A stretch of 23,335 bases of DNA, taken from positions 1 to 23,335 of the IMG/VR virus record IMGVR_UViG_3300010413_000180. One strand, written 5' to 3'. Below the pieces are notes generated by a model. It worked only from the letters and a program-made list of their open reading frames with translations, had not been told where the DNA came from and did not search any database. The DNA is from a virus. Positions within the stretch are counted from its first letter, which is position 1. Each line of letters opens with the position of its first letter. The position numbers were made by a program, and so were the translations under genes. This document shows, piece by piece, positions 1,484-21,623 of the stretch.

Positions 1484-1912
1484 TTAGTCGTCCAGAACGG
1501 CGTATTCGACGTACACACTGGCAAGGCCAGCAGCAGCGGTAGCACCACTGATGCCAACTTTGATATCCTGTGCGGCAGAATACACGTAAGGGACGGTTAG
1601 ACCGGTCGCGGCAACCAGAACTGCGCCCGTTGAAGCGGGAGCCATCGTGGTATCAGCAATAAAGCGGTCGATAGTCGTGGAATCACCGATGGTAGCGGCT
1701 ACCGAAGAGGTAAACGCTGTAGTCACTTGTGTCCACAGATTGGTTACGATAATGGGTGAAGCGACGGAAATCAAGACGTATTCACCGGTATCACCGATGG
1801 TCACGTCTGCGGTCGTATCGCCAGCACCGAAAGTTACTTTAGCGATTTGTCGTTTAGCAGGGACGTAGCCACTGAAAACTTCGCCAACTTCAGGAATACT
1901 TTTTGCAGTCAT
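1484..1912 (-). CDS. Small beta-rich virion protein (candidate head decoration)
   Basis: This 142-aa protein starts at ATG with AGGAGG eight nt upstream, and lies 13 nt after the major capsid gene. Composition is Thr/Ala/Val/Gly-rich with predicted beta strands throughout (for example VTFGAGDTTADVTIGDTGEYVLISV). There are no cysteines, membrane segments or recognisable catalytic motifs. The C-terminus (VYVEYAVLDD) mirrors that of the next gene, which suggests a common ancestor. Genes of this size and composition right after the capsid gene are commonly decoration or stabilisation proteins; that role is inferred from position only. Confidence 0.85.
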   Translation of the reverse strand: MTAKSIPEVGEVFSGYVPAKRQIAKVTFGAGDTTADVTIGDTGEYVLISVASPIIVTNLWTQVTTAFTSSVAATIGDSTTIDRFIADTTMAPASTGAVLVAATGLTVPYVYSAAQDIKVGISGATAAAGLASVYVEYAVLDD

Positions 1913-1925: not shown

Positions 1926-2939
1926 TTATGCTACATCGCTGAAAGCGTTCGTGTGTTCAAGGTTGCGAACCCAAGCGGAGTTCGTAATCATTACACCCAA
2001 GCTCATCTTCCAACCGATGGTCGCGCGTTGATTCAGGGGGTCGTTAGCACCTGCGGAACCGAGCTGTTTCACGATAATGGAAACGGGTTTAACCGATTTG
2101 CCAGTCATCGGGCCAGCCATTTCGCCGCCGTTGTCAACTTCACTGGGGGTCAGTCCGGCCATGCCGACGTACCCATAGCTCTCGCGGCCGATGAACAGCA
2201 TGGAGTAAACGTCGGTCGTAGAACCGACACCCTCGTTAGCATATTCACGAGCGTTCGAGCTCATGTAAATTTTGCAACGAAGCAAGCGGCCCAGATACCC
2301 ACCACGAATGGGGTTATTCTCGCTCTTGTCAGCCTCTTCAATGAACAGGTTAACGAAAACGGGGTCTTGCATCAGGGTTGCAAAAGTATGGGGGTGGATA
2401 ATACATACGAAATATTCACCGTCCACAGGAAGCGTATTCGCAGCTTCCAGGGCAGCTAACTGCGTCACGAAATCCGCGTAGGTAATATCGTGGGCAGGAG
2501 CGTCCAAGGTTGCACGGGAGGTTGCAGCACCACTGAAGTCAGCGGTAGCACCGTCGGTCAGGTCGTTACGGATAAGAGTATCCGCCGACAAGCCAGCCTG
2601 TTCGCCCAGCACCGAGGAGGTCTCAGAAATTAGAGGGTCAAAGACCGTCATTTCGAGTTCATCGGTGTGACCAATCCAAGCACCGTAGAAAGCGGGAGTA
2701 ACCGTAACGAGAGTCAAGCTCATCGCAGCTTGCTCGGTAGGTGTAGCCCCTTCTGTCAAAGCGGTCGTAACCGCTGCCAGGGAACCGTATTTACGAAGCT
2801 CGTAAGAACCGAATTTGTTAATCCGAGCTTTGATGCCCCATCGACCGTGTACTAAGCGAGGCAAAGCACGTGTCAATAGACGACGTTCATACATCGTTTT
2901 GATGGCATCGGACATGGTAGTCTGATTAAGGTTTGCCAT
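1926..2939 (-). CDS. Major capsid protein, N4-gp56 family
   Basis: The 337-aa product forms the phage head shell. Features I associate with the N4-gp56 capsid family are an N-terminal helix (TMSDAIKTMYERRLLTRALPRLVHGRW), the strand-turn FGSYELRKYGSLAAVTTALTEGATP near residues 43-68, a central DGEYFVCIIHPHTFATLMQDPVF block, and GGYLGRLLRCKIYMSSNA following it. A late segment (GKSVKPVSIIVKQLG) and a positively charged C-terminal strand complete the pattern. The HK97-like fold is established for this family; the assignment here is by motif recall. It starts at ATG behind AAAGGAG, 21 nt after the scaffold-like gene. It is high in GC compared with the giant gene (I counted 39 of 60 bases in 2101-2160), as expected of a highly expressed structural gene. 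Confidence 0.9.
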   Translation of the reverse strand: MANLNQTTMSDAIKTMYERRLLTRALPRLVHGRWGIKARINKFGSYELRKYGSLAAVTTALTEGATPTEQAAMSLTLVTVTPAFYGAWIGHTDELEMTVFDPLISETSSVLGEQAGLSADTLIRNDLTDGATADFSGAATSRATLDAPAHDITYADFVTQLAALEAANTLPVDGEYFVCIIHPHTFATLMQDPVFVNLFIEEADKSENNPIRGGYLGRLLRCKIYMSSNAREYANEGVGSTTDVYSMLFIGRESYGYVGMAGLTPSEVDNGGEMAGPMTGKSVKPVSIIVKQLGSAGANDPLNQRATIGWKMSLGVMITNSAWVRNLEHTNAFSDVA

Positions 2940-2960
2940 TTGTTAATTCTCCTTTAAGAA

Positions 2961-3731
2961 TTATTCGCTCTCAACTTCCTTGTTTCCAGGGATAGCTGAG
3001 GCTGGAATTAATCCCTGCTCAAATGCCCTATAGACATCCTCTTCAGTTTCGTATTTGCCGGAGCTCATGACATCGGCCCAAGTAATGCCGGTGGCAGGAG
3101 TACCGCCGCCTGTATCCACTGAAGGAGCAGGTTTTGGAGGGTTCGGCTGGTTATCTTTTGTTGACTTCGTTTCGGTCTTCGTGCTTTTCAACTTCTCACG
3201 AAGCTCGTCCCGTTCAGTCCGTAAAGCTTCCCATCCGCTTTGAATTAACGCCTCGTACCCGTTCTCTGCATCAAGAGAACTCGGAGAAATGCCAGCCTGA
3301 GTAAAATACGAAAGTGCAGCGTTAAACGCTTCACGTTGCTCAATCTCGCTATTAGCCTGTCGCAACTGGTTCTCCAGTTCCTGTACACGCTCGACGGCGA
3401 AGTTGGCTTCATATTCTGCCCGTGCGTCATCGTCTAGACCGGCAAGTTCTAGTTGACGTATCTTGTTCTGGTACGCCTGTTCCTGTTCTTGCCACTGTCT
3501 TGTTAATTCGGATTCACGCCTCTGGAGAGATGACTTTAACCCGCGCAAATCTTTCTCGTACGTTTGTGCAAGCGCATCCATCTTTTCCTGTAAGGCTTGT
3601 ACGTCAGCGTCCGATTTGGGTGTCGTGGTCGTCGCTTGGGTTGAAGCAACACCACTTCCTTTGGTTTCGACATCGGCCTTAGCCAATTCGTCACCGGTTT
3701 GGTTCCCTTGAACCTGAGTATCTTCGTTCAT
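2961..3731 (-). CDS. Scaffold-like capsid assembly protein
   Basis: The 256-aa product is hydrophilic, acidic and lacks cysteine. Residues about 1-45 are Thr/Gln/Gly-rich and probably disordered. Residues about 45-135 are a long charged helix or coiled coil with many Glu, Gln, Leu and Arg. A helical patch near 135-180 follows, then a Lys/Thr/Pro linker (about 183-210) and a compact C-terminal segment (ITWADVMSSGKYETEEDVYRAF). This architecture, plus placement immediately before the major capsid gene, fits a scaffolding protein that guides prohead assembly. It starts at ATG with AGGAGG 8 nt upstream. A sigma70-like promoter directly upstream (3770..3798) would let scaffold and capsid be made in excess over the giant protein. 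No protease motif is seen in it. Confidence 0.85.
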   Translation of the reverse strand: MNEDTQVQGNQTGDELAKADVETKGSGVASTQATTTTPKSDADVQALQEKMDALAQTYEKDLRGLKSSLQRRESELTRQWQEQEQAYQNKIRQLELAGLDDDARAEYEANFAVERVQELENQLRQANSEIEQREAFNAALSYFTQAGISPSSLDAENGYEALIQSGWEALRTERDELREKLKSTKTETKSTKDNQPNPPKPAPSVDTGGGTPATGITWADVMSSGKYETEEDVYRAFEQGLIPASAIPGNKEVESE

Positions 3732-3781: not shown

Positions 3782-3798
3782 ATCACTGTAAACTTCAA
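3770..3798 (-). promoter_or_regulatory. Sigma70-like promoter for scaffold, capsid and decoration genes
   Basis: On the minus strand TTGAAG (3793-3798) is separated by exactly 17 nt from a perfect TATAAT (3770-3775), 39 nt before the scaffold start codon. The -35 box overlaps the stop codon of the giant gene. The terminase and lysin promoters have the same geometry. Confidence 0.7.
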
Positions 3799-6700
3799 GT
3801 GCCTAAAGTGGCGAAAATGTAGCGTATAAAGCCTCGCCATTCAGGATGATTCATATATAGGTCGTTCAGGTACGACTGTGCAGACCCTGACAGGGGCTGT
3901 CCGTAGTTGTACGCCGAGGTAATTTCGTACTCTAATTGAGGGCTTATCGTTCCCTGCATACCTGAGGGCCATCTCAGCGGAGATTGGGTAGAAAATGAAA
4001 ATCCAATATCTGCCTGTATCGTAGGAGCTGGAGGAGGAGCACTAGGCCCGTTCTTGGCGTTCCTCGCTTTCCTCTGGTCACGCTTATCCTGCCATGTTGG
4101 AGGTAGTTCGGGGTTCTCTTCTGGACGGTTAGGAGATGTAGCTTTCTCAGACGCCTTCTCACCCTTCAGGAATTCTGCACCGAGTTTCTTTGTAGGAACT
4201 GGGTCAACGTAGTAAGCTCTCCACAGGGGATTGTTCTTAGCGAACTCGTCCTTTAATTGGAAGTACCGTTTGCTATCCTTTATCTTCTCAGGAACATACC
4301 TTCGGATAAGAGCCATTTCTTCCCTATCCATAGAGTAGTAATATCCCAAAGTAGCGTTGTAGAAATCGCCTCCCAGTTCTTCTGTAACTATCTGTTTAAA
4401 GTCTTCATTCAACTTCTGAGCTTCTATAAACTCTCTCATCTTCTCATTGGTGGGGTCTTGAATTCCAAGATAGTCTGAGGCTTCCTTGAGCATACTGTAC
4501 AGGAGCTCTATCTTCTCGGGTTGTTTGTCATAACCGTATCCAATGGTATCATACCAAGTCTTTACCAGAGTATTGAACTGCCCTTTTTCACTCTCGATTA
4601 GCTGACCGATTTGTATCAGGTCTGCATTAGCTCGTCCAGGGCCAAGGGCTGTCAGCATACGCCAGATTTCCTGTTTCTTAGGATACATCTCACCGTGACG
4701 CTGAACCATTTGTTCATCAATCGTCAGAGGATGTTCACCCGAATATTCAGCCCACTTCTTAACGTCATCGTAGGTAAAGCGGTCACCGTAAATCTCTGTT
4801 ACCGCTTCATATAACTGGTCAGTGGAAGGGTAGCCATCTGGGAACTGTGAGAAGAACTCCCTTGCTGCGATTTGTGCCTCATAACCTCCATCCAATACAC
4901 CGGAATCCCAGTAGGCGTTCCAATATACTTGGTCATAAGCGGCGTTAAGGGCATCGAAAACATCGTCATTTGCACGTTTCCATGCGTCGTACCCTTCGGG
5001 GGTAGCTTCAGCTATTAACTGTTGCATGAACCCGTCGAAGTCAAACATCTGGTCTTCCTTTAATTTTCCCATCAAAGGAAGTCGAGCTTCAGAGAACTTA
5101 GGCATTAGACTGCTGGCTAGATTGGTCATGTTCAATCTCCAGATGTCCATACTCAACTTATAGTCCTCATATTTCTGACCGTTCTCTATGTCCCACTGAG
5201 GGCGGCTTTCTCTCATCTGAGTCCAGAACTCTCTACGCCAAGTTTCCTGTATCTGGTCGGCGGTCTTATTAGTCCCGTTAATCATTTCATACTTTGTAAT
5301 CAGGAACTGGCTTTTCAAGGCTTGAGCACCCTCAAAAAATGCATCGTACAGGGGTTTTACATCTTCATATGGAGCTCCGATAGGAAGTGCTTTTAGGCTT
5401 TCCTGTAGGGTATATTCGAGGGAGTTCATTCCTTGCCAGTATTTGATTTGGAAGTCTTCAGCATCCAACCCTCCCGATATTGCATCCGCACGCTCTTGGG
5501 GGTCTGTTACCAACTCTCCCTCCGCATTACGTACGTATCCCAATCTTGAGTACATAGAGTACACCCAACCCTCTGGAGTATTCTTGTTAGCGATATAGAT
5601 GTCCCAAATGTCTTGGTCATCTACAGGTAGGTTGAATATAGCTGCTGACATTTTATCGTTAATAGCCCGTGTCAGCATGTTATGTCGATTACGGATTGCC
5701 AATAGTTCTGCTCTACCGTCGGTATAAGGTTTGGGGTAGAAACTGGTTGCCACTGACATTAGATTTCTAAAAGCTTCATCGCCAGTAATCTTTTTGTAGT
5801 AACTGTTCCACTCCGCAACTTCATCCCATTGAGAGTCGGGGTTTCCATTCCTACGATATTGCAGGATGCTTTTAAATCTTTGAGTTGCAGTCCACTTATC
5901 TTGAGCACTAATATCAGGGTTATTGATTAGCTCATTGAGTTCTGATAGCATTTCAGTCTCAACAAGATAATCATGCCAAGGGACTTCAGGGTAGAACAGG
6001 TCTGTTGTAGCCCCTACCGCAGAGGCGAAGCCAGGACTTAACCAAGGGATTTGGGAAAGTCTGTATTCCAATTCCTTAGGCATCCATCTAGGCATCAGGG
6101 GAATTAGTGGGCTGGACGGGAACGCGGGTAAAGCGTCATTAGAAACTCCACCAAATAATTTCATAGAGTAGGCTATCCAAGGGGCAACTGAGAATCCATA
6201 CACTGAAGAATTCTTAAGGAAGTGTTCAACGATGTATGCTGTTGGTTCTGCTGGGTCACCTTCTGAATTGAGCTCAGGGGCATTTGGATGCATTACCGAG
6301 TCCAGAATATAGGTAGCGGATATACCGTGAATAGGATTTATCCAAAGGTCAGTACCTGGAATCTGAAAACGTCCGTCGTAGGATTCTAACAGGTTACCTC
6401 TGGAATCCACCATTTTAGCCTGTCTACGCATAGTCTCTGAAGCGTCGTATATTTTTCCATAAGCTGCTGTAATAGCTGGATGCTCAGCCATAGTCTTAAC
6501 CCAGAAGGGCCACGAACGGCTGGGAAACATCCAGAATGGGAATACGTTACGCATAAAATCATCGAACCGAGTTCGGGTAGCGTAATCGAGCATGACATCA
6601 TTAGTCCTTTTTACTGACTGGTCAACTACCTTTTTAACCAGTTCTCCTTTAGATTTAACTGCTTCGTCAGCCCAGGCGTTCAGTTGAAGCCTTGAAGCGT

Positions 6701-9700
6701 TGTCCAATTCTCTGTACATGATGCCATCGTTCTCTACCAATTCTTTAGCGTACTCTTTCCATTTTCGCAGAGCTTCGAGGGCAGCTTCCTGATTGTTTAT
6801 CAGGGAGTCGCTATTCCTGACAAATGTCTTCATAGGAGCACCGAGCAAGGTTTGATTTACTACAGGGAATAAATGCTTGTACATGTCATCACCGTAGTGG
6901 TAGTTCAGCATACCGTTCTCGAATCGTTCCAAGTCAACTCTCAGTCTTCGATAAGTATCTGCAACGTCATCAGACATGTTGCGTTCCTTCATCAGAAGGT
7001 ACTCACGCAACCTCTGAGGGCTTGTCATGACCTCATCAGGGAATCCGACATAATTTCTGTTCTGTTTCCATACGTTCCAAGCTTCTCCAAGGGTCTCATT
7101 CCACTTCTCATCGGCATCGAATTGGAATGTTTTACGAATAAGGTCTTCTGAAACATTATCCAAAGAATCGTAAATACCGAATTTGGGTTCGTCAAATCTG
7201 AACAGGTCATCCATGAATTCCCTCATCGAAGGAGTTAAGTTCTTCCCTGTAACATCTCCAACCTTTGAGAATATTTCTTTTAGCCAGTTCTTGAACTTCT
7301 TGAATACTCCCTCTAGTGCTGGAGTAGGAGCTTTACCGCTTCGTACATATTGAACAAAGTCGTTTGCAAAGCGTTCTTCAGCCTTTTCATACTTTAAGGC
7401 ACTCTCAGTAATTTCTTCAAGTCTCTTAGCCTGTTCTGGGGATAGCTTAGTCAGGGATTTTAGCTGTCGATATTCTTCGAAAGCAGGACGCAGGGTCTTA
7501 AATTCCCCTTCCGCAAGTCCAACTATCTTTTCTAAACGGGCAGTCATTACAGGGTCTAAGCTGTTACGGAACAGGTGTCCAAGTTCATGGATGCCGGTAG
7601 ATAAATCCGCTCCCTTAACGATACTTATGATTGTTGAACCGTCGCCAAGAAATTCAATAGCTCCCTCAGAACCGCTGTGAAGGAGAGAGCGAACCTTTTT
7701 AACTTCTTCAGCCGTAACTCCGAAAAGACTCTCCCACTCACTTTCAGGGACAAACTTTTTAATCCCATCCAAGAATGTATCATAAATGGAAGATTTGATT
7801 TTATAGTAACTAAACTTATCTGCCAAATTTCTTTTTAACTTGCTGGCAGTATTAATAAAATCCTGTCCTACGCCTATCTCCTTAGTTAGCTCATAAGCTC
7901 CTTTTAATCCAGGTTTCTTTACTACTCCCTTATCAATCAACTCCTGCCAAGACAGCCCCATATCATCGGCACGACGTAAGATATTATAGGAGTCTTCCCC
8001 ACCCTTAAGGGTCTTCTCAACTGCCCAACTATACGTTAGTAATTCAAATTGATTTAATTTATGAAGTTCCTCCATAGATAAGTAAGTTTTATCATTAAGA
8101 AACTCTAATACATTCTTATATCCTGTAGCCTCATCCATTATCTCTTCTAAACTTTGATAGACAGCTTTAGCCTTCTTAGTTGCGTATTTTTCTGGGGTTT
8201 TTTTGAAAATTGTCTTTAGCTTATTCCAAGTATCTAACCCCTGCTGAGCTAAGGTAGGCCCTTCTACTACTCCAGAACTGTAGTAAAAGGCTATGATTGC
8301 CCTATATTCTTCTGGAATAGATTCGTCTAGAACCTTTTGAGTTATGTTAAGTTTAGATTTTATAACCGTATCTATAACATTTTTACGGGAGTTAGTTATC
8401 ATCGCATCTTGAGTTTGCAGGGGCATGAATACTTCATTAGCTGCTTTAGAGCCGTATTCTTTAAAGGGGTCAAGACTATTAAATAATGCATCAGTTCTTT
8501 CTAACTCATCTAAAGAATCCAACGCATTAACAGCTTTAAGGTTCTTCTCATAAAAGGTGGGAATATCCATACCCGAAGCTCTGGCTCTGGCATCCATAAG
8601 CTGTAGCAAGGCTTGAGATTGTTCATCAGTATATCCAACCTCTTTAAAGGCATCCATCAACCGTGTCCTTGTAGGTGCAAATTCAGGGCTGCGCTCAGCA
8701 TGGTACATATAATTATTGACGTGTTCAAGTATCTCGTCGTCTGTAAGCTCAAGCCCGTTCTGTCGCGCAATTACTTGAGCTTTGCGAGAGTTCATCGTAG
8801 GAATAACGGACGCTTTTGTTTCGTTCAGGGACTTGTTCAGAAGTGCATACACCTCATCACTTATCTCTATCTCAAACCGAGAACCTTTTATAGGCTCGAA
8901 AGTACCGGCAAGCCAGGTCTTGAAATGTCTGAAACTCTTAGCGAGTCTGACATCATCTCCAACACCTTCTCTTAAGTATTGAGTAAATATCTGACCAACA
9001 ACTTCCCGCTGTTTTTCAGAAAGCTTTCCACCCCCAACCAATCCCTGACCGCTTACCTGAACAACAAGCTTATCGAAAGCTTCCATTTCCTTCTTAAGTC
9101 CAGGATTGATTTCAGACAGGGTGAACATGTCATCGTACCAGATATTGGAAATCTGGGCAAGCATGTCTTCCATGTTATCTGCGGAGTCGAATCCGAATAG
9201 AACTAATCGGTTTTCCCTTTCTATAAAATCAATACCCAACCGTTCACCGATTCTGATATGGGGGTCGGCGGGTAGCTGCCAAATCCCCTTAACTTTCTTG
9301 AACCCAAGCCTCTCGTAAAAGGCCTCGTAAATCTTAGGGTCTCCTCCAGCCATCTGTTGATACCACTTAGCGTGCTCATCAACCAGCCTTGAAAGTACCT
9401 GAGACTCTTGAGGAGTCATATTAGCTTTAGAAATAAGAGCTCCCTGAAGTGTTTTTACGTAATCTTGGTCAGGTCTCTTGAAAATTCTGAATACATCCTG
9501 AGGGTCATTTACATGAACACCGAACAGGGTGGATTGAGCTATCCGGACATCAGAGGGACTTGTAAACGTACGTCCTCTGAAGGTAAAGGATTGTATATTA
9601 CCTTTATCATCAAGGATGTAGTTAATTCCGAGTTCCCTGCTGTAGAACCCATCAATATCTTCTAAGGCTCCGTCCAGCTTTTCAATTACTTTCTCAATTT

Positions 9701-12700
9701 CTCCGTCATCAATGAGCTTGAGTAGTTCTTGGTCTCGTCTGAGGGCAGATTCGTATGCGGCGGTTCCTTCATCCCAGTATTTAGTCCACAGCTTATCTCG
9801 TCCCATACGAATACGTTTAGGCCCTGGATATACATCCAAGAAGAACTTATGTATCGAAGCTTCGTTTACTTCGATTCTGTTATAGAACTGCCGTAGTTTC
9901 ATCGCCAAGTCGTCTGGCAGCGTTTCGCTGTGGATAAGGTTCCACACCTCCGCTCTGACAGAAGCTTTTTGATTACCTGCGATACGGAAGAAGTCAGGAA
10001 TAGCTCTAATCTCCTGATGTAATCCTTCTACGTGAGCGTTCATGAATTCAACAAACCCTCTGATATAGGGGTCTTCCATCGTAGCCAGCTTACCCGCTTT
10101 CAGAACATCCTCCAGGGAGTTGTACTTGAATTTAGCGTTCTTTCCGGTCAACTTTTCAATGAATTCTCGAACGTATTCGTCGTTATTGAACTGATTGGTA
10201 ATAGCCCAGAACGCTTTTTCATTCTCTGCCAGAACGTCAGCAGGGTTATCCATCATCTTGAGCACATACTCTAGGAACTGTTTCCTATCCTTTATCTTAG
10301 CATCCGAGAATACTTTCATATTCTCGGGAATATTTGCATAGCCTTCGATAAACCTATCCCTTAGTTCGGTATATATCTTCTTCTCTTTAGCATCCAGAGC
10401 ATAGGCATTACCTACTACCAGATAAGGTTTCTTATTTTCTGGATTAATTTTCAACTCCACTGTAATCGGGTCATCTACGAACTCTACCTTCATATAGGGT
10501 TCAGCGTCCGATTGGAAGGTCTCCGCGATTTCCATACCCCGTTTCCGTACGTTTCTGGAGGGTTGGGGAGGAATGGTAGGCCCACCGCTCATAGGGCTTG
10601 AGCCAGTCAAATCACTCGGTTTCGGGAAGTCCCCCATGTCAGCCACATCAGTACCAAGAGTACCGCCGATATGGGACTCACTTGCCATGTTAGACATTCT
10701 GATGGATACCTCATCCATGTATGCGTCAATATAATCATCAAAGAACTGCCCGACTTCTGCTTTAGATACCTTACCATTAGTCTTAAGGGTATCCTGAACA
10801 AAGTTATCGAAACTACGCCTGACATCGGCTGTAAACAGCATCCTGTCCGTATTCCCCATACCCTTAAGCCAGCTATCTATTTCAGGGGGAACCAGCATTG
10901 ACCACGCTTTTCGACCGGTAAGTTTCTTAGGGTCTATATACGTAGTAAGGTCATTTACATAAGCGCGAAGTTTGGCGGGATTGTTTCCAGCTAAATCCCA
11001 CATATGTTTAGCTATTTTTTGGTTCTCTGGAGACAGCATATGTAGCGTCGCCTCTAAAGCTTGAGGGTCGAGGTGCTTCATCGCAGAGGTATACCCCTCA
11101 GCGAACATTCGAAGACGCATGGTAAATTCCATAGCGGTGTTAAAGTCAGCAACAGCTTCTGGATATGTCAAGAGCCAGTCGCCTGTTTTTAGCCCGTCCC
11201 ATAGGTTAATGAACGCCCCTTTAAGTCCGGAATGTTGAGTAAGGTCGTAGATTTCCAGAACCGTTCCAGACTGGTTTTTAATTCGGCTTATACGACTTTC
11301 TCGTATAGCATCTTTCCAAAATTCAAAGAACCCAAACTTTTTTCCTGAGAGAAGCCTTCCAGGAGCCGCCTGCTCGAAATCGAGTCCCGTACGCGCTAAG
11401 GCTTGAACCAGTTCATAAGGAACTACCCCAACCTCATCAGCTAGAGCTGCATGTAAACTGTTGTACAAAGTATGAAGGTCTCCAAAGGGATTTCCTCCAG
11501 TTATAAGTCTACGGAATCCAGAGTCTACCGTGTTATTGATAAGGTATCTGGGAGTAGACAATACGTTAGTAGCCCACAGAGCTTTGAGGAAATTCCCCGC
11601 TTTGTGGAACCATTCTACGGAGCTAGACAGAACATCTGCTCCGGTTCGTAGCCACTCCTTCGAAGCTTTCCCCATCTTAATAGCCCTTAAGTCTCCCTTT
11701 TTAAGTCTACTGGCTACGGCGGGATTTATACCTTCTTCACCCATATCAGCGAACAAGCGAAGTCTCTTATCCAACCATCCCATGACCGTATCATCAAGAA
11801 GGCTAGTACCCTCTCGTATCTTATGAGCGTCCATAAAATTGTTGCCAAATTTCTCGGCCCAGTTGCTTATAATATCAACAATGGCTCTTTCGTCATCCTG
11901 TAACACCATAAGCTGCTCAAGTACCCTCTTGGCTACCTGTTCAGCGGTAAGATTTTTTTCTTGAGACTTAAGCACACTTCCGATAGTATTTCCAGTTTTT
12001 GTCTGCCAGTTTACAGTAGACTGCTCAAATTCAGCTCCCCAGTTACGGCCGCTTATCTTCTTTGCCATCTCAATATCTTTATGGTCAGTAGCATCAATAA
12101 GGCGTTTGAACTCGGTAGAAGTAATTCCCTCAAGTTCAGGAAGTTTCAATTTCGCCCTGTTATATATCTCTTCAAGGGCCTCTACCCCATTAATCTTCAG
12201 GATTTCTCTGGCGTTATCAACTATAATACCGAGATTCTCTACGATACGCTTGGCGTTGGCATATGTAGGGTCAGAGCCTTTCAATACTCGACGGAGAATG
12301 TCTGAAGTATCGGCAGCAATCCTGCTGGCTACCGTTCCAGTAGTAACCCTTCCCAAAAACTTGGCGATAGAGTTTAAGGGCGGAGTCCCCTTGATAACCC
12401 CCCTGATTACCCAACCCAGACCCTCAAAAATAACTTTATCAAGTCCGGTTATATCCAAAAGATTCAGAGGGTCGAATATTGCCTGACCAATAAGTTCTGT
12501 AGACGCACTCAGGAACGGTTGCTTTAACTGCTGGATTTCATCTTCTGTTAACTCTCTACCTACTTGCATCTGAGCTTCCGCAAGAGCACCGTAAAAAGCG
12601 TCTTCAGCTTCAGGGTTAGTGGAGAAGGTATATGAACCGTACTTATTTCTCAGGTCGGTCTTGGCATCTGCCCTGTAATAATCTTTAAGAAGGACATAAG

Positions 12701-14207
12701 ATTCCTGTTGCAGTCGTACCAGTTCTTGGAACTCCCAAGTATGGCGAGTAACCATATCTACAGCGGTTTGGTCGAACTGACGGAAACGAGCTTCATACAT
12801 CTGATACTGCTTCTCATCACCCCTACGCATAGCTGCAACTGCCATATTCTTGTATCGGTCAGCCTTACGACGAACCTCATCGTAAACAGCTTTCTGTTCA
12901 GGGAGCATATTCCTTAGGTTAATATTGTAAGCTTCGTCGTACTTCTGAGTAGCTTCCTGTTGAAGCTGTGCCATCATGGTCTGAGCTTCTTCAGTATTGG
13001 CGTGTAGAACACCGTATTCAGAGAACCTGCGCTCTAGGTTAGCTGCCCTGTTAGAAAGTTTAAAGGCTTCCGTCATTCGAGCAGCCCCCTCAGCAGGGAT
13101 TGACTGAATTATCTCTTTCATTTTAGCGTCATTCTGCTCATAGCTGGCCCAAATATTTTGAGCATCTACTTTAGCTTTTTCGTATTCCGCTTTCCGAGCT
13201 TTATCATACTTACTTTTATACTTGTAATACTCCTCGGTACTTTCAGGAGCGTTCATATGCTGTAAGTCTTCCTCGCTAAATCCTTCTGGAAGGGAACTGT
13301 TGGCTCCCGCCAGGTCATTCCAGACATCGTACTGAGCAGCCTTTCTTACAGCGAACTCTGCCTTTACTTCTTCAAGAGTTGCTCTCTTTCGTGCTGCTTC
13401 TGCCGCGCGTTCTTCAGGAGTCTGACCTATTCTGAAGATATTACTTCGGTCTACCTTAGATGTATCCTCCAGATTGAGGACATCCTGCTCCAATAACGTC
13501 ATCCTTATGAACAACCAAGCGTTAGAAAGAGCTCCAGTTACGGCTGGAATAAGCTTGAGGGAAGACTCTTCCCTAAAAGCGTTCTCAGTAGTGCCATAAA
13601 GCTCAGTCTCCTCAGCCCCGCTAGATAGACCGCGACCGATATCATAAGCCCAGCCCCAAATACCTGCATGGGCATCATAATACTCCTGAGCATCTGCACT
13701 CAAATTAATGGGTACTCGCTCTCCTCCACCCATAGGAGTATAGTAAATGGTTTCTGTTTCCGGTCTAGGAGTAGTTATTTTCTTACCGTAAGAAGATGTA
13801 ACACTCGTAGCTCCAACATTGAATCCAGTAGGAGCTGTACTTACAGGATGAGGGCCGACGGCGGGTGTCTTGAACGCCCCAGTAAGCTTAGCTGTACTTC
13901 CAGGTGGAATATATTTGGGAGGAGGAATGAAGGCCTTAGGGGCTTCCAGAGTTTTCCCAGCTCCGAAAACATGGTCACGCCCAAAGATTGTATATGTAGC
14001 TCCCCTGATAGCTTCCTTGAATTCCCTACTACGCCAAAATTCTCCGGTATCTTGTGCAGTTTTACCGAAGCCATATTTCAAGCTTGCATATTGAGAGTAG
14101 GACATATCAAGCTGTTTAGCTCGCTCTTGGTCTTCCTTTTGGGCTTTTTGTGTATTAAGACCTACTCGGTGTCTAGCCCAGTATCTTCGTTGTGATTCAG
14201 TTGACAC
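3795..14207 (-). CDS. Giant 3470-aa phage protein with HELGH zincin-like motif (probable virion/ejected protein)
   Basis: GTG start with AAGGAG 5 nt upstream, overlapping the stop of the preceding gene. Visible regions: basic N-terminus; Pro-rich segment near 90-130; long charged helices about 270-530; IFDPLNLLDITGLDKV near 575; STPRYLINNTVDSG with P886-N892; a Pro/Gly linker near 1200-1225; HELGH at 2207-2211 followed by E2278 in ERFA, the usual geometry of a zinc metallopeptidase; an aromatic FPFWMFPSRSWPFW at 2556-2569; and a Pro/Lys-rich tail near 3350-3400. I recall the PRYLINN, HELGH...ExFA and aromatic PFW elements from large multi-domain phage proteins. Location between portal and scaffold suggests a head-internal protein, perhaps ejected with the DNA, but that is inference. 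No RNA polymerase motifs were found despite the N4-type capsid. An AT-rich patch spans about 7780-8530. Confidence 0.9.
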   Translation of the reverse strand: MSTESQRRYWARHRVGLNTQKAQKEDQERAKQLDMSYSQYASLKYGFGKTAQDTGEFWRSREFKEAIRGATYTIFGRDHVFGAGKTLEAPKAFIPPPKYIPPGSTAKLTGAFKTPAVGPHPVSTAPTGFNVGATSVTSSYGKKITTPRPETETIYYTPMGGGERVPINLSADAQEYYDAHAGIWGWAYDIGRGLSSGAEETELYGTTENAFREESSLKLIPAVTGALSNAWLFIRMTLLEQDVLNLEDTSKVDRSNIFRIGQTPEERAAEAARKRATLEEVKAEFAVRKAAQYDVWNDLAGANSSLPEGFSEEDLQHMNAPESTEEYYKYKSKYDKARKAEYEKAKVDAQNIWASYEQNDAKMKEIIQSIPAEGAARMTEAFKLSNRAANLERRFSEYGVLHANTEEAQTMMAQLQQEATQKYDEAYNINLRNMLPEQKAVYDEVRRKADRYKNMAVAAMRRGDEKQYQMYEARFRQFDQTAVDMVTRHTWEFQELVRLQQESYVLLKDYYRADAKTDLRNKYGSYTFSTNPEAEDAFYGALAEAQMQVGRELTEDEIQQLKQPFLSASTELIGQAIFDPLNLLDITGLDKVIFEGLGWVIRGVIKGTPPLNSIAKFLGRVTTGTVASRIAADTSDILRRVLKGSDPTYANAKRIVENLGIIVDNAREILKINGVEALEEIYNRAKLKLPELEGITSTEFKRLIDATDHKDIEMAKKISGRNWGAEFEQSTVNWQTKTGNTIGSVLKSQEKNLTAEQVAKRVLEQLMVLQDDERAIVDIISNWAEKFGNNFMDAHKIREGTSLLDDTVMGWLDKRLRLFADMGEEGINPAVASRLKKGDLRAIKMGKASKEWLRTGADVLSSSVEWFHKAGNFLKALWATNVLSTPRYLINNTVDSGFRRLITGGNPFGDLHTLYNSLHAALADEVGVVPYELVQALARTGLDFEQAAPGRLLSGKKFGFFEFWKDAIRESRISRIKNQSGTVLEIYDLTQHSGLKGAFINLWDGLKTGDWLLTYPEAVADFNTAMEFTMRLRMFAEGYTSAMKHLDPQALEATLHMLSPENQKIAKHMWDLAGNNPAKLRAYVNDLTTYIDPKKLTGRKAWSMLVPPEIDSWLKGMGNTDRMLFTADVRRSFDNFVQDTLKTNGKVSKAEVGQFFDDYIDAYMDEVSIRMSNMASESHIGGTLGTDVADMGDFPKPSDLTGSSPMSGGPTIPPQPSRNVRKRGMEIAETFQSDAEPYMKVEFVDDPITVELKINPENKKPYLVVGNAYALDAKEKKIYTELRDRFIEGYANIPENMKVFSDAKIKDRKQFLEYVLKMMDNPADVLAENEKAFWAITNQFNNDEYVREFIEKLTGKNAKFKYNSLEDVLKAGKLATMEDPYIRGFVEFMNAHVEGLHQEIRAIPDFFRIAGNQKASVRAEVWNLIHSETLPDDLAMKLRQFYNRIEVNEASIHKFFLDVYPGPKRIRMGRDKLWTKYWDEGTAAYESALRRDQELLKLIDDGEIEKVIEKLDGALEDIDGFYSRELGINYILDDKGNIQSFTFRGRTFTSPSDVRIAQSTLFGVHVNDPQDVFRIFKRPDQDYVKTLQGALISKANMTPQESQVLSRLVDEHAKWYQQMAGGDPKIYEAFYERLGFKKVKGIWQLPADPHIRIGERLGIDFIERENRLVLFGFDSADNMEDMLAQISNIWYDDMFTLSEINPGLKKEMEAFDKLVVQVSGQGLVGGGKLSEKQREVVGQIFTQYLREGVGDDVRLAKSFRHFKTWLAGTFEPIKGSRFEIEISDEVYALLNKSLNETKASVIPTMNSRKAQVIARQNGLELTDDEILEHVNNYMYHAERSPEFAPTRTRLMDAFKEVGYTDEQSQALLQLMDARARASGMDIPTFYEKNLKAVNALDSLDELERTDALFNSLDPFKEYGSKAANEVFMPLQTQDAMITNSRKNVIDTVIKSKLNITQKVLDESIPEEYRAIIAFYYSSGVVEGPTLAQQGLDTWNKLKTIFKKTPEKYATKKAKAVYQSLEEIMDEATGYKNVLEFLNDKTYLSMEELHKLNQFELLTYSWAVEKTLKGGEDSYNILRRADDMGLSWQELIDKGVVKKPGLKGAYELTKEIGVGQDFINTASKLKRNLADKFSYYKIKSSIYDTFLDGIKKFVPESEWESLFGVTAEEVKKVRSLLHSGSEGAIEFLGDGSTIISIVKGADLSTGIHELGHLFRNSLDPVMTARLEKIVGLAEGEFKTLRPAFEEYRQLKSLTKLSPEQAKRLEEITESALKYEKAEERFANDFVQYVRSGKAPTPALEGVFKKFKNWLKEIFSKVGDVTGKNLTPSMREFMDDLFRFDEPKFGIYDSLDNVSEDLIRKTFQFDADEKWNETLGEAWNVWKQNRNYVGFPDEVMTSPQRLREYLLMKERNMSDDVADTYRRLRVDLERFENGMLNYHYGDDMYKHLFPVVNQTLLGAPMKTFVRNSDSLINNQEAALEALRKWKEYAKELVENDGIMYRELDNASRLQLNAWADEAVKSKGELVKKVVDQSVKRTNDVMLDYATRTRFDDFMRNVFPFWMFPSRSWPFWVKTMAEHPAITAAYGKIYDASETMRRQAKMVDSRGNLLESYDGRFQIPGTDLWINPIHGISATYILDSVMHPNAPELNSEGDPAEPTAYIVEHFLKNSSVYGFSVAPWIAYSMKLFGGVSNDALPAFPSSPLIPLMPRWMPKELEYRLSQIPWLSPGFASAVGATTDLFYPEVPWHDYLVETEMLSELNELINNPDISAQDKWTATQRFKSILQYRRNGNPDSQWDEVAEWNSYYKKITGDEAFRNLMSVATSFYPKPYTDGRAELLAIRNRHNMLTRAINDKMSAAIFNLPVDDQDIWDIYIANKNTPEGWVYSMYSRLGYVRNAEGELVTDPQERADAISGGLDAEDFQIKYWQGMNSLEYTLQESLKALPIGAPYEDVKPLYDAFFEGAQALKSQFLITKYEMINGTNKTADQIQETWRREFWTQMRESRPQWDIENGQKYEDYKLSMDIWRLNMTNLASSLMPKFSEARLPLMGKLKEDQMFDFDGFMQQLIAEATPEGYDAWKRANDDVFDALNAAYDQVYWNAYWDSGVLDGGYEAQIAAREFFSQFPDGYPSTDQLYEAVTEIYGDRFTYDDVKKWAEYSGEHPLTIDEQMVQRHGEMYPKKQEIWRMLTALGPGRANADLIQIGQLIESEKGQFNTLVKTWYDTIGYGYDKQPEKIELLYSMLKEASDYLGIQDPTNEKMREFIEAQKLNEDFKQIVTEELGGDFYNATLGYYYSMDREEMALIRRYVPEKIKDSKRYFQLKDEFAKNNPLWRAYYVDPVPTKKLGAEFLKGEKASEKATSPNRPEENPELPPTWQDKRDQRKARNAKNGPSAPPPAPTIQADIGFSFSTQSPLRWPSGMQGTISPQLEYEITSAYNYGQPLSGSAQSYLNDLYMNHPEWRGFIRYIFATLGT

Positions 14208-14216: not shown

Positions 14217-14768
14217 TTAGTACAAACGTCTATTCTTACCTGCCGCCAACGGGTCTTTTAAACCTCCTGGTGTACCTAACATACGCGCTAGATTAGCATA
14301 GTCCTGAGATACCCCAGAACCCTCTATCATGGCGTTAAGCCTGTTCTGAAACGCCAACAACTCGCCTCTGGACATCTTATTATTGCCGCCCTTGGTACGA
14401 ACAGCCATAGCTTGCATAAGTTTGGAGATGTTCAACAGGAGCCTGAAACCCTTCATCTGAGCAGGTGTGACTTCCTGACCGCTTCCATAAATGGTCTTCC
14501 TGGCTGCCATAAGTTGCTTTTCAAGGGCAGCCCCTCGGTTAGCATTATAGAATCTGCGTTCTTGGGCAGGTTTCAGGTCTGCTACACTAGCGGGTACTGG
14601 AAATGATTTAGTTTTCTTCTCATAGTTGGATGCCATCCAACTGGCAATCGAAGACTTGTCATTAGCTGACAACCTTTTAAATATATCTCCAGAGATTTGA
14701 GCGAAGATAGACTTATCTACCTGGTCTTTCTCCGTTTCACTATTAATGAATATCTGTCGCTTAGCCAT
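14217..14768 (-). CDS. Conserved-looking head-region protein of unknown function
   Basis: I take ATG 14768 as start (183 aa, beginning MAKRQIFINSETEKDQ) because AAAGGAAAA lies just upstream and the ATG sits in an 8-nt overlap with the previous stop. A start 51 nt further upstream is possible but would run deep into the neighbouring gene. The product is helical and basic overall, with no cysteine, membrane segment or recognised motif. The segments RFYNANRGAALEKQLMAARKT and ISKLMQAMAVRTKGGNN look like amphipathic helices. It lies between portal and giant gene, so a connector, head-completion or chaperone role is possible. I do not recognise a family. Confidence 0.8.
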   Translation of the reverse strand: MAKRQIFINSETEKDQVDKSIFAQISGDIFKRLSANDKSSIASWMASNYEKKTKSFPVPASVADLKPAQERRFYNANRGAALEKQLMAARKTIYGSGQEVTPAQMKGFRLLLNISKLMQAMAVRTKGGNNKMSRGELLAFQNRLNAMIEGSGVSQDYANLARMLGTPGGLKDPLAAGKNRRLY

Positions 14769-14988
14769 TGATTTTCCTTTCCATAGTGGCAATATACCTA
14801 TCCATGTTCTGCTTGCCATACTTGGCCGTCAGCACTCTGAAGTGTGCCGGTGTAAGAGTCTTATATAGTTCTACATCAGGGTCTTTATCTGGCCCCTGAC
14901 CTGTAGCCGACCGAATCCTGTTGAAGGCGGCTCCAACTCCCTTTCTGGTGCGTTTAAAGGCTGCTTTCAGCCTATCGTCGTTTGCCAT
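14761..14988 (-). CDS. Small basic protein between portal and giant gene
   Basis: The 75-aa product has a basic N-terminal half (RLKAAFKRTRKGVGAAFNRIR) and a C-terminal half LTPAHFRVLTAKYGKQNMDRYIATME that resembles short helical segments seen in other phage head-region proteins. There are no cysteines and no membrane segment. The start ATG lies one nucleotide after the portal stop (TAA-T-ATG), so re-initiation after portal translation is likely. It overlaps the next gene by 8 nt. Function unknown; nucleic acid or virion-DNA contact would fit its charge but is only a guess. Confidence 0.8.
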   Translation of the reverse strand: MANDDRLKAAFKRTRKGVGAAFNRIRSATGQGPDKDPDVELYKTLTPAHFRVLTAKYGKQNMDRYIATMERKING

Positions 14989-14989: not shown

Positions 14990-17608
14990 TTAAGCTCCTT
15001 CCATTAGCTGAGGAGTCTCCCCAGCCATATTATTCTGCTGGTCTATCGCGCTCTGTCCGTAGGGCTGGCCTCCCTCTGCCTGAGGGACTGGTTGCCCATC
15101 TGGACTCTGCAAGCCCGTCAATTGTTCGGGGTTAGGGGGTTGCTGACCCATCGCAGCCTGTTGCTGTTGGACTTGAGCCTGTAACTGTTGCAGAGCAAGC
15201 CCAGCAGCCTCATCTCCAGCATCTGCACGTTCCTTAAGTTCTCCTATAACGGCGTACTGAATAAAAGCGGGATGTCGAGAAGTAATCTCGATAATCCGTT
15301 TCTCTTCTTCTTCCTCGGGCTGTTCAATGTCAAGGTATTTCTCCATGATGGTGTAATCGGAGAGAGTTCCTTTGACCTGAGTGGACATGGCGACCTTGCG
15401 GGTCTCTTCGTTCGGGAACTGTGGTCGAATCTCTGCCATTACCTGATAGCCTTTTAGCTTTTGCACGTCCACATAATCCATGTAAGCCTTGCCTCGATTA
15501 TAGCCGTACACGCAGATAACACTGTCAGGGGCGAACTCCTCCAGCAGTTTCAGGACACTCTTAGCCCACGATGTCAGGAGCAGTTGTAGGTGCTCTACTG
15601 GCTGTTCCAGACGGATGCGGTTCTGGTCTCCTAGCTGGGAAAGGGCATAACCGGCAACTTGGCTATTACCAGAACCGAACATCACGTCTGAGAACCCCGA
15701 TTGCTGGATTCGGGAGCGAAGGAAGTCCATGTGGTTCATGACATCTGGGGCGTTCCCAGGCCATGAGGGAAACTCGATTGATTCGTCTGGAGTAATCTGT
15801 ACGTGGTTATACAGACCAGGGTCGAAGATGACCTTACGTCCAGGCTGGGTCTTGGTTACGATAGGGAGGCTGGTATATACGTCAATCTGATGGGCACGTC
15901 GGTTGAATGAGCGTTCCAGCAGGGAAATCGAGGATTCCAGCGGGGAAAGGATACTTACCCAATCGTCAGACTTATCGCCTGTCGGCTTAAAGAACTGCAA
16001 TTTGTAGGGCAGTTCCTTGTAACCATCCATAATAGTGGGCTCTTTGACTGGGGCGTTATTGAAGATAATGGTATTTCGAACCACCATTCTACGGGCCGTA
16101 AGGGGGCTTCCATCTGCCTCGAAAAGGGGATTTCCCTCCTCATCCTTTTCTTGGACATCTGCCCACACATAGTCCCAAGCATCAACAAACTCGCCCATTG
16201 TCGAGGACTTTTCATCTTCGCTCATGTGGCGGGATTCCTCAAGAGTTACGCCATACTGTATCTCAATATCGAGGAAAGAGCGGCTTTCGAACCTGCCCAG
16301 CATCAGCCAGCGTTTAGGCCCACCAGGGAGAGCGAATATCTTAATAGGGTCGATTACCTGCGTACGTACCGGTACTTCTTTGTACGCCCAACGGGCATCG
16401 CCCTCTTCGTCATCTAAAAGGAACCGATTCTCTTCTTCAAGAACGGGGTCGAATACCGTAAAGGTAGCGGAACCACCATCCCTGATAAAGTACAGGAATG
16501 CCTGATACAGGAGACTGGCTTCGGCTCTCTCGTTGTTGGCCTCGATAGTACCCGCCAACAGTTTCTCAATATCACTCGTTTCCTCCTGCTCTTTGGTAGT
16601 AGGATTCATGCCGAACGAGTGCCAGCGCACGGAATTCCCCAGCATGATACCTACGGCAAGGTCTACCGTATTTGTATAGGTGGGGTCACTATTATGAGAG
16701 GCGTAACCTTCTGCTAACAGAGTTTTAGACTCTGTTTCAAGGGTAACTACTTCCCGTTTGCCTAGAGACTTGACAGAAACAATACGATGCAAGCCAACGT
16801 TATCAATCCGACCGCCGATGTAGCCTTTCTCTTTAGCTACCTCAAGCAATCGCGGAGGACGATACATTCCTAGTATCTTCCACACGTCTGAGCGTCTGGA
16901 GATATATAGATTCTCTACATCCCCATATGTACCATTATTATAGGAAGAGCTGAAGTACATACCTTTATCTTCAAGGATACGTTTAATCTCCGCCATCATT
17001 GGATTATCCCGTTGAGCGAACCCTAACCTGAGTACGTGTCTGCCGTCTGTCTCATTCAGGGTAAAGTAACCTTCCCCGTCCAGCCCAGCCGCAACGTATC
17101 CAGCATCCCACGAAGCATCGGTTTCCCACGTATCTGAAAGTTTAATGAACCGGAAATCCTTTTTCAGGTCTTTAGTCTCTCTCCATTCAGTCTTTCCTGA
17201 ATTGGGGTAGCGAATCAACCATTTATGATTCTCACTCGCTATAATTACTGTCCCATCTTCAAGAGTTATTTCATAGCTGGGAAGCTTAGCTCTTCCTGTA
17301 TTCAGTACCTTGGTGGGCTTAAACTTCCTTGCATAGCTTTCTTCGGGAAACTCGTCAAATCCAACGATGCCGTCATCCACAGCTAAATCTCCCACAGGAA
17401 CCCATTTCAGGTCATCTGTAAGTACCTTAGTTTCTGGAGCCAAACAATATTGGATTTCATTTGACTTTTTCCGGCGACGGTAGTGGTTCATGTTGTAGAG
17501 GCGACGCCACCGTTCGATATTTTCATGCCAGTTCTTAACGTACTCCTTGGCCCTACCAACGCGGTCTTGAACCTCTAGGAATTCCTTACTTTTACTCATA
17601 GTCTTCAT
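14990..17608 (-). CDS. Portal protein interrupted in frame by an intein
   Basis: The 872-aa precursor contains a 252-aa intein at residues 55-306; splicing would join Y54 to S307 and leave a 620-aa portal. The portal is the dodecameric DNA gate of the head, where terminase docks. Extein features are an N-terminal helix with WHENIERWRRLYN, the conserved-looking TNTVDLAVGIMLGNSVRW right after the intein, a mid region with LPYKLQFFKPTG and SILSPLESSISLLERSFNRR, the loop and helix block SGFSDVMFGSGNSQVAGYALSQ, and a Gln/Pro-rich C-tail typical of portals. Start choice is ambiguous: ATG 17608 follows AAGGACGG, and a second ATG at 17599 is also possible. Its 5' end overlaps the terminase gene. The downstream gene starts one nt after its stop. 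Confidence 0.9.
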   Translation of the reverse strand: MKTMSKSKEFLEVQDRVGRAKEYVKNWHENIERWRRLYNMNHYRRRKKSNEIQYCLAPETKVLTDDLKWVPVGDLAVDDGIVGFDEFPEESYARKFKPTKVLNTGRAKLPSYEITLEDGTVIIASENHKWLIRYPNSGKTEWRETKDLKKDFRFIKLSDTWETDASWDAGYVAAGLDGEGYFTLNETDGRHVLRLGFAQRDNPMMAEIKRILEDKGMYFSSSYNNGTYGDVENLYISRRSDVWKILGMYRPPRLLEVAKEKGYIGGRIDNVGLHRIVSVKSLGKREVVTLETESKTLLAEGYASHNSDPTYTNTVDLAVGIMLGNSVRWHSFGMNPTTKEQEETSDIEKLLAGTIEANNERAEASLLYQAFLYFIRDGGSATFTVFDPVLEEENRFLLDDEEGDARWAYKEVPVRTQVIDPIKIFALPGGPKRWLMLGRFESRSFLDIEIQYGVTLEESRHMSEDEKSSTMGEFVDAWDYVWADVQEKDEEGNPLFEADGSPLTARRMVVRNTIIFNNAPVKEPTIMDGYKELPYKLQFFKPTGDKSDDWVSILSPLESSISLLERSFNRRAHQIDVYTSLPIVTKTQPGRKVIFDPGLYNHVQITPDESIEFPSWPGNAPDVMNHMDFLRSRIQQSGFSDVMFGSGNSQVAGYALSQLGDQNRIRLEQPVEHLQLLLTSWAKSVLKLLEEFAPDSVICVYGYNRGKAYMDYVDVQKLKGYQVMAEIRPQFPNEETRKVAMSTQVKGTLSDYTIMEKYLDIEQPEEEEEKRIIEITSRHPAFIQYAVIGELKERADAGDEAAGLALQQLQAQVQQQQAAMGQQPPNPEQLTGLQSPDGQPVPQAEGGQPYGQSAIDQQNNMAGETPQLMEGA
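16691..17446 (-). other. Intein with single LAGLIDADG homing-endonuclease motif, inside the portal gene
   Basis: Numbering follows the portal precursor. C55 begins block A (CLAPETKVLT). Block B is DGTVIIASENH with the key His128 (SxxH instead of TxxH). Block F begins at R275 (RIVSVKSLG). Block G ends GYASHN with H305-N306, followed by extein Ser307. These are the residues needed for standard N-S acyl shift, transesterification and Asn cyclisation. Between blocks B and F is a short endonuclease region with one LAGLIDADG-type helix, DAGYVAAGLDGEGYF (168-182), with E179 as the expected acid residue. I see no second copy. The insert is exactly 756 bp and in frame. It sits just before the conserved TNTVDLAVGI portal segment, as expected of inteins in conserved sites. 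Confidence 0.93.
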
Positions 17609-19199
17609 CCGTCCTTAATTCAAATGGTATTTCCGCGTTCTTCAGAGCCCTCATAGCGGTCGCATCAGAATACGGTGATTCTACGATAACGGGGACTGAA
17701 ATGTCCACTCCACCGTTAGTTACTGCCACGTACGCTGCCATCGCCATAGCGATAGCTCCATCAACGTACGCTCTGCGGGACGCTGTATTCTTGACGATTC
17801 TGAAACCCTTAGCGGATGTCTCTGCCATCGCCATCTGAATGTGCTTACGCAGGTCATCGTCCCTGTATGTATGGTACTTGCGGTACTTGAACAGGTCATA
17901 CAAAAGCTGAGAGGCAGCGGTCATGTTGCCGACCGACTGCGTAAACTCATAGGTATTTACACCTGCCCGTTTCAGCCTCAGCATTAGCTGTACGAGATGC
18001 TGAGGGTCATAGGCTACCGCGGCTATATTAAACTTCGTCCTCAGGTCGAGGATGGTCTGTTCCACTGTAGCATCCAGGTCTACAGGGTCACCTTCCTGAG
18101 GAGTCCAGATGCGGTGGAAGACCTGTCCCACCACGCCTGAGTTCTGGTCAAAGGCAACTCCTACAATAGCGGTGCTGTCCCGTTTGATACCGGCGTCCAC
18201 TCCCAGAATAACAGGCCAGTGGCGGAAGGGGTGGTCGTTCCATATCTCAGCGGGGGCTTCGAACTTGGTAGCTCCTTCATCGTACCACTCGATAGGGATA
18301 AACGACTCTTGCGAAGTTACCCACCGGTTCTCATGCAGACGAATGTACGCGCTTGGACGCAGCGTACTCATCTGTTTCTCATAATACTCCGGCGTCTGCC
18401 ACGGCATGGTGGGTTCATGACACCAGTACGTAAATATCTCTCCGTTCTTCCAACAGGGGAAATCCTCAAGCCCTTTTATGGGGTCGCCCTGCCCCTGATG
18501 GTTCTCCTCTTTACCCACACCCTTTATGTATAAATCCCACAGCAGGTCAGATTCGTTCTCGAACCCCGCGTAGGTAGCGATAAAGCGGAGAGAGTTCTTT
18601 ACGGTAGGGATGGGTGTAAGCTCATCCCACGTACGTCTACTTAGCTCAGACGTATAGCCCCAAAGTTCGTCCCATAGGGTCAGGGCCTGACGGGCTCCCG
18701 CTACAGAACGGTAAGATTGGGCTACTGCTTGAATAAAGCTCCCGTTAGGGAGGTCTATTCTGTACTGCGTAATCTTGCAGGTCTTGGTCGTATATCTGTA
18801 CATCCGTTCCCCAGTATCGAACATCTCGCGGTTAGCTATCCGCTGCTCGAAGTGGAACTTAATGTCACGCATCAGACGACCTTCAGCCGAGTCAAGGTCG
18901 TTCGCCAGTACGAATATCTCTGTACCAGGAGGGCCATTCTCGGCGTACCAGCATCCTACAGCAGCACCAAGAGCCGTCTTACCTGACTTCTTGATGGTAC
19001 TGTACAGGACTGTCTCGTATTTAAGTTTTCCCTTTTCGTCAAAGCCTACGGCTTCTTCCAGTATCTTTCGTTGGTCATCGGTCAGTTGGAGCTTACCCTT
19101 GCCTATCCATTCCCCCTTGTCAAGGTCGTAAGTATCTCTAACCCAAAACCCATCTTCACTGTCCAGCCACTCAACGAACGATTGTTTTATTTGTTTCAT
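17592..19199 (-). CDS. terL: Terminase large subunit (ATPase-nuclease)
   Basis: The 535-aa product is the DNA-packaging motor: it cuts concatemers and drives DNA through the portal using ATP. The Walker A-like loop is KKSGKT (70-75), a form common in phage terminases. Walker B is ALTLWDELW (172-180), with D177 and the catalytic E178. The RNase H-like nuclease acids fit D335 (ILGVDAG), D398 (AVAYDPQH) and D480 (AYVDGAIAMAMAAY). Length is typical. It starts at ATG behind GGAAGGAAGGTGA, with a strong TTGATT-17-TATAAT promoter upstream, and overlaps the portal gene by 17 nt, so it is the first gene of the head operon here. No small terminase subunit is evident in the window. Confidence 0.96.
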   Translation of the reverse strand: MKQIKQSFVEWLDSEDGFWVRDTYDLDKGEWIGKGKLQLTDDQRKILEEAVGFDEKGKLKYETVLYSTIKKSGKTALGAAVGCWYAENGPPGTEIFVLANDLDSAEGRLMRDIKFHFEQRIANREMFDTGERMYRYTTKTCKITQYRIDLPNGSFIQAVAQSYRSVAGARQALTLWDELWGYTSELSRRTWDELTPIPTVKNSLRFIATYAGFENESDLLWDLYIKGVGKEENHQGQGDPIKGLEDFPCWKNGEIFTYWCHEPTMPWQTPEYYEKQMSTLRPSAYIRLHENRWVTSQESFIPIEWYDEGATKFEAPAEIWNDHPFRHWPVILGVDAGIKRDSTAIVGVAFDQNSGVVGQVFHRIWTPQEGDPVDLDATVEQTILDLRTKFNIAAVAYDPQHLVQLMLRLKRAGVNTYEFTQSVGNMTAASQLLYDLFKYRKYHTYRDDDLRKHIQMAMAETSAKGFRIVKNTASRRAYVDGAIAMAMAAYVAVTNGGVDISVPVIVESPYSDATAMRALKNAEIPFELRTDEDYE

Positions 19200-19540: not shown

Positions 19541-19554
19541 AGGGGTTCTTTTTT
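19514..19554. terminator. Bidirectional rho-independent terminator between lysin and plus-strand gene
   Basis: A 12-bp stem with one C-A mismatch (arms 19520-19531 and 19536-19547) has a GAAG loop. On the plus strand it is followed by cTTTTTT (19548-19554). On the minus strand it is followed by TTTTGTTC. It contains the stop codon of the plus-strand gene and abuts that of the lysin gene, so it serves both converging genes. Confidence 0.88.
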
Positions 19555-21604: not shown

Positions 21605-21623
21605 TAATTTATCCTCCATTAGA

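Follow-up and report, generated by a model that had tools for sequence, protein, structure and literature searches.

What does a phage make of a protein of 3470 residues encoded among its head genes? The question is raised by a linear virus fragment of 23,335 bases (23.3 kb) from an uncultured phage (IMG/VR record IMGVR_UViG_3300010413_000180), which is referred to in its full length as the window. A giant open reading frame (ORF) on its minus strand (3795-14207) runs for 3470 codons without interruption, from a GTG start at 14207, preceded by an AAGGAG-like site just upstream, to a stop at 3795, whereas no stop-free run exceeded 269 codons in 100 Markov shuffles. A previous sequence-only reading of the window had described this uninterrupted ORF, without stating its strand, and had located it between portal and scaffold, and both descriptions agree with the present analysis; its occupancy of 45 percent is correct as a share of the 23.3 kb fragment, but not as a share of the genome.

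The giant is probably a phage protein of the polyvalent type, packaged in the head and ejected, of which the zincin (metallopeptidase-like) domain would act on the giant itself or on host proteins after entry. This view is based on the position among head genes in related contigs and in the podovirus MW202608, the occurrence of two conserved blocks (N-core and C-core) in all full-length family members, the exchangeable middle parts, the invariant metal-site residues, the location of BPP-1-like giants after internal virion genes, the depletion of cysteine, and the detection of a giant in the virions of podovirus JC1. The parts of the giant are as follows (aa, amino acids; HMM, hidden Markov model; pLDDT, predicted local distance difference test).

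3795 to 14207, minus strand: giant protein, probably polyvalent-type, 3470 aa; full-length relatives at the equivalent place in related contigs
10518 to 12770, minus strand: N-core, residues 480-1230, conserved family block; alignment A2, HMM matches in full-length family members
11532 to 11552, minus strand: PRYLINN (886-892), inside the N-core; its proline is an invariant column of the N-core alignment
8718 to 9500, minus strand: degenerate zincin copy Z1, residues about 1570-1830, with AQISN (1684-1688) at the HExxH position; zincin HMM, alignment A6
7173 to 7670, minus strand: intact zincin domain Z2, residues 2180-2345; PHROG 9880 (E 1e-16), alignments A8, A9 and A12, AlphaFold pLDDT 90-97 over about 2180-2300
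7575 to 7589, minus strand: HELGH (2207-2211), with predicted zinc ligands H2207 and H2211 and predicted general base E2208; invariant in A8 and A12
7374 to 7376, minus strand: E2278, predicted third zinc ligand, in the E-x-[FYW]-A helix (predicted helix 2257-2290); invariant in A8 and A12
3798 to 6920, minus strand: C-core, residues 2430-3470, the most conserved part of the family; alignments A1 and A7, HMM matches across the family
6501 to 6542, minus strand: FPFWMFPSRSWPFW (2556-2569), signature segment of the C-core; A1, segment HMM

The layout of a zinc metallopeptidase, proposed by the sequence-only reading for HELGH and E2278, is present in Z2, with residues that do not vary among relatives. 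The chance expectation of HExxH in the giant is 0.04, and E2278 opens the motif E-R-F-A. PHROG 9880, a family of 2231 positions with unknown function, matched residues 2182-2334 of the giant (E 1e-16), and in the AlphaFold model HELGH lies within helix 2202-2215 and E2278 within helix 2257-2290, with pLDDT of 90-97 for residues about 2180-2300. In the zincin alignment of ten phages, T2204, H2207, E2208, H2211, E2278, A2281, F2284, G2291, and F2302 are invariant. Viral contigs were scanned with a pattern of the glutamate helix, HExxH being outside the pattern, and at least 558 relatives were confirmed; among the best 80 of these at least 558, HExxH was found in 75 and HExxxH in five, the glutamate was kept in all 80, and complete ORFs ranged from 1379 to 3889 codons. 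By tblastn against cultured phages, the sole matching region of the giant was the zincin, in giant proteins of BPP-1-like podoviruses that directly follow internal virion and lysozyme genes; window residues 2194-2340 share 31% identity with residues 784-924 of Bbp10 (tblastn E 2e-4). The two zincins can be aligned across HExxH and the E-x-[FYW]-A helix and share the nine invariant columns, but the rest of the window chain is unrelated to Bbp10 at the sequence level. The CLCA_X family was described with Bbp10 residues 700-1000 (phage BPP-1) as one of its seeds (PMC3650047), and a zincin-like metallopeptidase is the hub domain of polyvalent proteins, in which HExxxH variants and multiple copies were noted (PMC5512222). 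As judged from these relatives, Z2 is a genuine, ancient, and optional metallopeptidase domain of the CLCA_X/polyvalent-protein kind, with predicted zinc binding and proteolysis. A gluzincin-like module within a giant multidomain protein of the head-gene cluster, most likely packaged and ejected, is thereby supported, but since the same domain is already known as CLCA_X and as the zincin hub of polyvalent proteins, its candidacy for an 'undescribed' activity is not supported.

The second copy, Z1, was detected with the zincin HMM in the window (1699-1787, independent E-value (iE) 4e-6), L037 (1758-1855, iE 4e-11), and L035 (1480-1782, iE 6e-12), L numbers denoting relatives of the window phage. 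At the HExxH position of the Z1 alignment stand AQISN (window), RQTSV (L010), RQYTV (L036), RETGE (L035), and RLSSE (L039), and from these residues Z1 is predicted to be catalytically dead in all five members having a copy, some of which are without a live zincin.

The family was collected from IMG/VR with capsid and C-terminal (C-core) queries, the full-length giant as query giving no relative. In the relatives the gene order is equivalent, and the giants range from 2835 to more than 4300 aa; most of the window giant is covered by about 14 distinct ones, all uncultured, and the blocks common to them are the N-core (480-1230) and the C-core (2430-3470). Podovirus MW202608, reached via a zincin giant with the C-core segment, has the TerL-portal-...-giant-scaffold-capsid order as in the window. 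Between the two cores the contents differ. The window, L010/L037, L041, L048, and L043/L044 have an intact zincin of the CLCA_X type, which is absent in L036 (/L033), L039, L040, L042, L045, L052, and L057; L035 has the degenerate copy only, and L055, L056, and L058 carry other HExxH strings unmatched by the zincin profile, the one in L055 resembling a different zincin. The middle contains ART-PolyVal in L048 (best E 4e-24), L039, and L044, a helicase domain in L042, and a GGDEF domain in L037, the last judged from the tally for the family and from an aligned GGDEF motif. Since close relatives are without the zincin, it should be a cargo module.

The exchange of modules bears on the possibility that the zincin is a maturation protease, cutting the giant or head proteins in the procapsid, either ahead of packaging or in its course, as has been suggested for P1 DdrB. 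The giant gene adjoins the scaffold and capsid genes, and DdrB has such a domain and is cleaved before packaging (PMC5512222). However, L036, L039, and L040 have the same head genes without a zincin and L035 has the degenerate copy only, and the virion RNA polymerase (vRNAP) of phage N4, which has a comparable domain, is packaged without cleavage (PMC5512222). A maturation protease is thus unlikely; module swapping and the zincin-free close relatives (L036/L033, L039, and L040) likewise disfavor the processing of virion proteins, suggested by the sequence-only reading, as a needed step of head maturation.

Two observations on the relatives are added. In the closest relative, L010/L037, a GGDEF-like stretch (about 2330-2460) is located immediately before the zincin. 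The family giant of L055 (4314+ aa) contains a tyrosine-integrase domain at residues 1211-1404 (PF00589, E 4e-13), which is possibly delivered as protein.

The two cores gave no match among Pfam, PHROG, and NCBIfam families, nor did searches of Protein Data Bank (PDB) sequences with alignments A1, A2, and A3 or of prokaryote genomes with the C-core alignment A1. The AlphaFold model of the C-core is predicted to be all-helical (mean pLDDT 70.6), and no significant match to it was found among solved structures; by Foldseek and VIA-align, the C-core and Z1+Z2 models gave generic helical matches only (best Z 5.2 and 5.9). Among the high-ranking BFVD matches were phage proteins of the polyvalent and 'crystallin motif' types, but no match reached E<=0.001. 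That the N-core and C-core are copies of one domain was unsupported on comparison. The profile of the aromatic segment FPFWMFPSRSWPFW matched 16 of 80 other zincin giants (the best 80 of at least 558; E<1e-3), always after the zincin, and therefore the C-core block is wider in distribution than the window family. The zincin had been described as flanked by PRYLINN and this aromatic segment; both motifs exist at their places, but PRYLINN lies about 1300 residues before the zincin and the aromatic segment about 345 after it, and the latter, instead of being part of the protease, is the signature of the separate C-core.

The helical C-core, being the most conserved part, could also indicate a structural protein of the internal core or the DNA conduit, like T7 gp15/gp16, in which the zincin, instead of acting as an enzyme in the cytoplasm, would be a relic or would help in crossing the envelope. 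The T7 pair is likewise helical and cysteine-free, and kin of the giant in BPP-1-like phages come after internal virion genes. T7 gp16 carries a transglycosylase; in the window giant no transglycosylase was recognized, and no sequence similarity to gp15/gp16 was found. Moreover, ART, GGDEF, helicase, and integrase in the middles of relatives are sensible only in the cytoplasm, and the catalytic residues of Z2 are strictly kept wherever Z2 is present. A purely structural role is improbable on these grounds. The T7 pair is ejected, and the window giant is predicted to be.

A further comparison is with N4 gp50, the vRNAP, in which a zincin-like C1 is followed by a helical C2 of about 1100 residues without structural relatives (PMC12633501). 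The window giant resembles gp50 in length (3470 versus 3500 aa), in the position of HExxH (2207 versus 2228), in the long helical C-terminus, and in the lack of cysteine, and thus might be a divergent N4-type polymerase. The C-terminal parts, however, have no detectable homology: profile comparison of the C-core with N4 C2 by hhalign gave a probability of 0.1% (E 0.45), and the best segment was no better than column shuffles (4/60 as high), and hence homology of the C-core to C2, considered from a shared aromatic/R...NP pattern, was rejected by this control. The zincin profiles are weakly similar (E 0.0018 over 26 columns), the family core profiles gave no significant match to gp50, and no polymerase domain was recognized by Pfam in the window giant, the middle of which was not compared profile-to-profile with the N4 polymerase. 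Identity as an N4-type polymerase is therefore very improbable, and N4 vRNAP works as an analogue of the giant.

The giant has no cysteine in 3470 aa. Altogether, the family giants contain 12 cysteines in 64,638 residues, with zero in 18 of 22 sequences, versus 70 cysteines in 15,346 residues of the TerL, portal, and capsid proteins encoded on the contigs that carry the giants; about 16 would be expected in the window giant, and the Fisher p is 4e-38 by a test that takes residues as independent and ignores relatedness, on a sample in which some sequences are fragments or near-duplicates. In all relatives, the scaffold and the 200-aa and 75-aa neighbors of the giant are likewise free of cysteine. 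Of cultured phages, Cobetia phage Carin1 encodes a protein, gp32 (2854 aa), with HESGH at 1638 and no cysteine. Among known phages, N4 gp50, gp51, and gp52 and T7 gp15 and gp16 have no cysteine and T7 gp14 has one, and the lack in N4-type polymerases has been linked to injection, with passage through the tail (PMC3915230). By analogy, the absence of cysteine supports, without proving, that the giant is ejected, perhaps along with the 200-aa and 75-aa neighbors; the chain would be cysteine-free because it must pass unfolded through the tail, and through the periplasm if the host has one.

The window giant is located among late virion genes, as polyvalent proteins are, and it resembles phage polyvalent proteins (Iyer et al. 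2017, PMC5512222) in being a giant multidomain protein among virion genes with a zincin hub and with ART, GGDEF, and helicase modules in its relatives. It differs from them in the N- and C-cores without known family, the degenerate second zincin in five members, and the tyrosine integrase in one relative. A case with virion data is gp69 of podovirus JC1, a polyvalent (DarB-like) protein of 4515 aa found in virions by mass spectrometry (PMC9144972). As is proposed for the window giant, gp69 of this Bcep22-type podovirus is a giant polyvalent-type protein; as compared by description, it differs in its DarB-like methylase/helicase cargo and its location at the end of the morphogenesis module.

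Several points weigh against a packaged and ejected polyvalent-type protein. In addition to the above limits of the Fisher test, the absence of cysteine is non-specific, because the family scaffold proteins and the N4 capsid proteins gp56/gp57 also have none. Fold searches of PDB with the large Z1+Z2 model gave no significant match (E<=0.001) to a solved structure, no catalytic domain besides the zincin copies was recognized in the window protein by Pfam, PHROGs, or NCBIfam, and a C-core detectably similar to that of the window was found in no cultured phage. Pfam gave no match on the whole giant, including the zincin, with no hit at E<=1, and NCBIfam matches to mevalonate kinase (20.8 bits versus a cutoff of 163) and GcvT were regarded as chance. 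A MuF domain had no Pfam match in the giant; the portal-near position alone resembles MuF-type minor head proteins.

The genes of the window are nearly all directed right to left, in the order small genes, GH25 endolysin, TerL, portal, 75-aa protein, 200-aa protein, giant, scaffold-like protein, major capsid protein, and small head genes; the portal and then two small genes are thus upstream of the giant.

17592 to 19199, minus strand: TerL, followed by the portal
14990 to 17608, minus strand: portal protein, 872 aa including an intein, by position after TerL; portals of relatives are 604-624 aa
14761 to 14988, minus strand: 75-aa protein after the portal; cysteine-free in 10/10 relatives, likewise a candidate partner ejection protein
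14217 to 14819, minus strand: 200-aa protein upstream of the giant; cysteine-free in 11/11 relatives, candidate partner ejection protein
2961 to 3731, minus strand: scaffold-like protein, 256 aa, downstream of the giant, by position and composition; no family match
1926 to 2939, minus strand: major capsid protein, downstream of the scaffold; phrog_1357 (E 6e-51)

The portal intein (window 16691-17446, minus strand; portal residues about 55-306) starts with CLAPETKV, ends with SHN before S, and includes a LAGLIDADG-like stretch (AGLDGEGYF); the Pfam Intein_splicing match to the portal was below the cutoff (E 0.003). The portal of L026 is uninterrupted at the insertion point (REIQY|SDPTYTN), and portals of relatives are about 250 aa shorter, indicating that the intein is unique to the window phage in this set. 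The endolysin (19553-21619) combines a GH25 lysozyme with a phosphodiester-glycosidase-like NAGPA domain (PF09992, E 9e-7), and the regions 429-977 and 21728-22292 encode several small proteins in which CxxC zinc-ribbon motifs occur in pairs.

For the packaged and ejected giant, the following mechanism is proposed. The N-core and the helical C-core would form a common chassis for entry into the head and exit via the portal and tail, and the middle would be a cargo bay, with modules swapped between related phages. The cargo of the window giant would consist of one intact gluzincin-type metallopeptidase (H2207, E2208, H2211, and E2278) and a degenerate copy keeping the fold only. After entry, the zincin would most likely cut its own long chain to free parts, or host proteins. 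A bolder extension, which we consider somewhat unlikely, is a delivery chassis in which the fixed N- and C-blocks carry into the cell any cysteine-free cargo lying between them, in one relative even a tyrosine integrase that could be used at once, and the dead zincin serves as an adaptor or pro-domain controlling the live one; if so, the absence of cysteine would be a general sequence mark of phage-ejected proteins. Cysteine depletion may serve as an inexpensive marker, readable from sequence, of proteins that are candidates for ejection.

The polyvalent kind and its zincin were already known, and what is somewhat new here is a family built on the N- and C-cores with an exchangeable middle, the conservation of a dead zincin, and how strongly cysteine is depleted. 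If the proposed reading is right, a family of uncultured phages with fixed ends and a swappable middle would be open to comparison. Two questions could then be put to the test: which region a phage giant requires in order to be packaged and ejected, and what function the zincin modules, very common as they are, fulfil.

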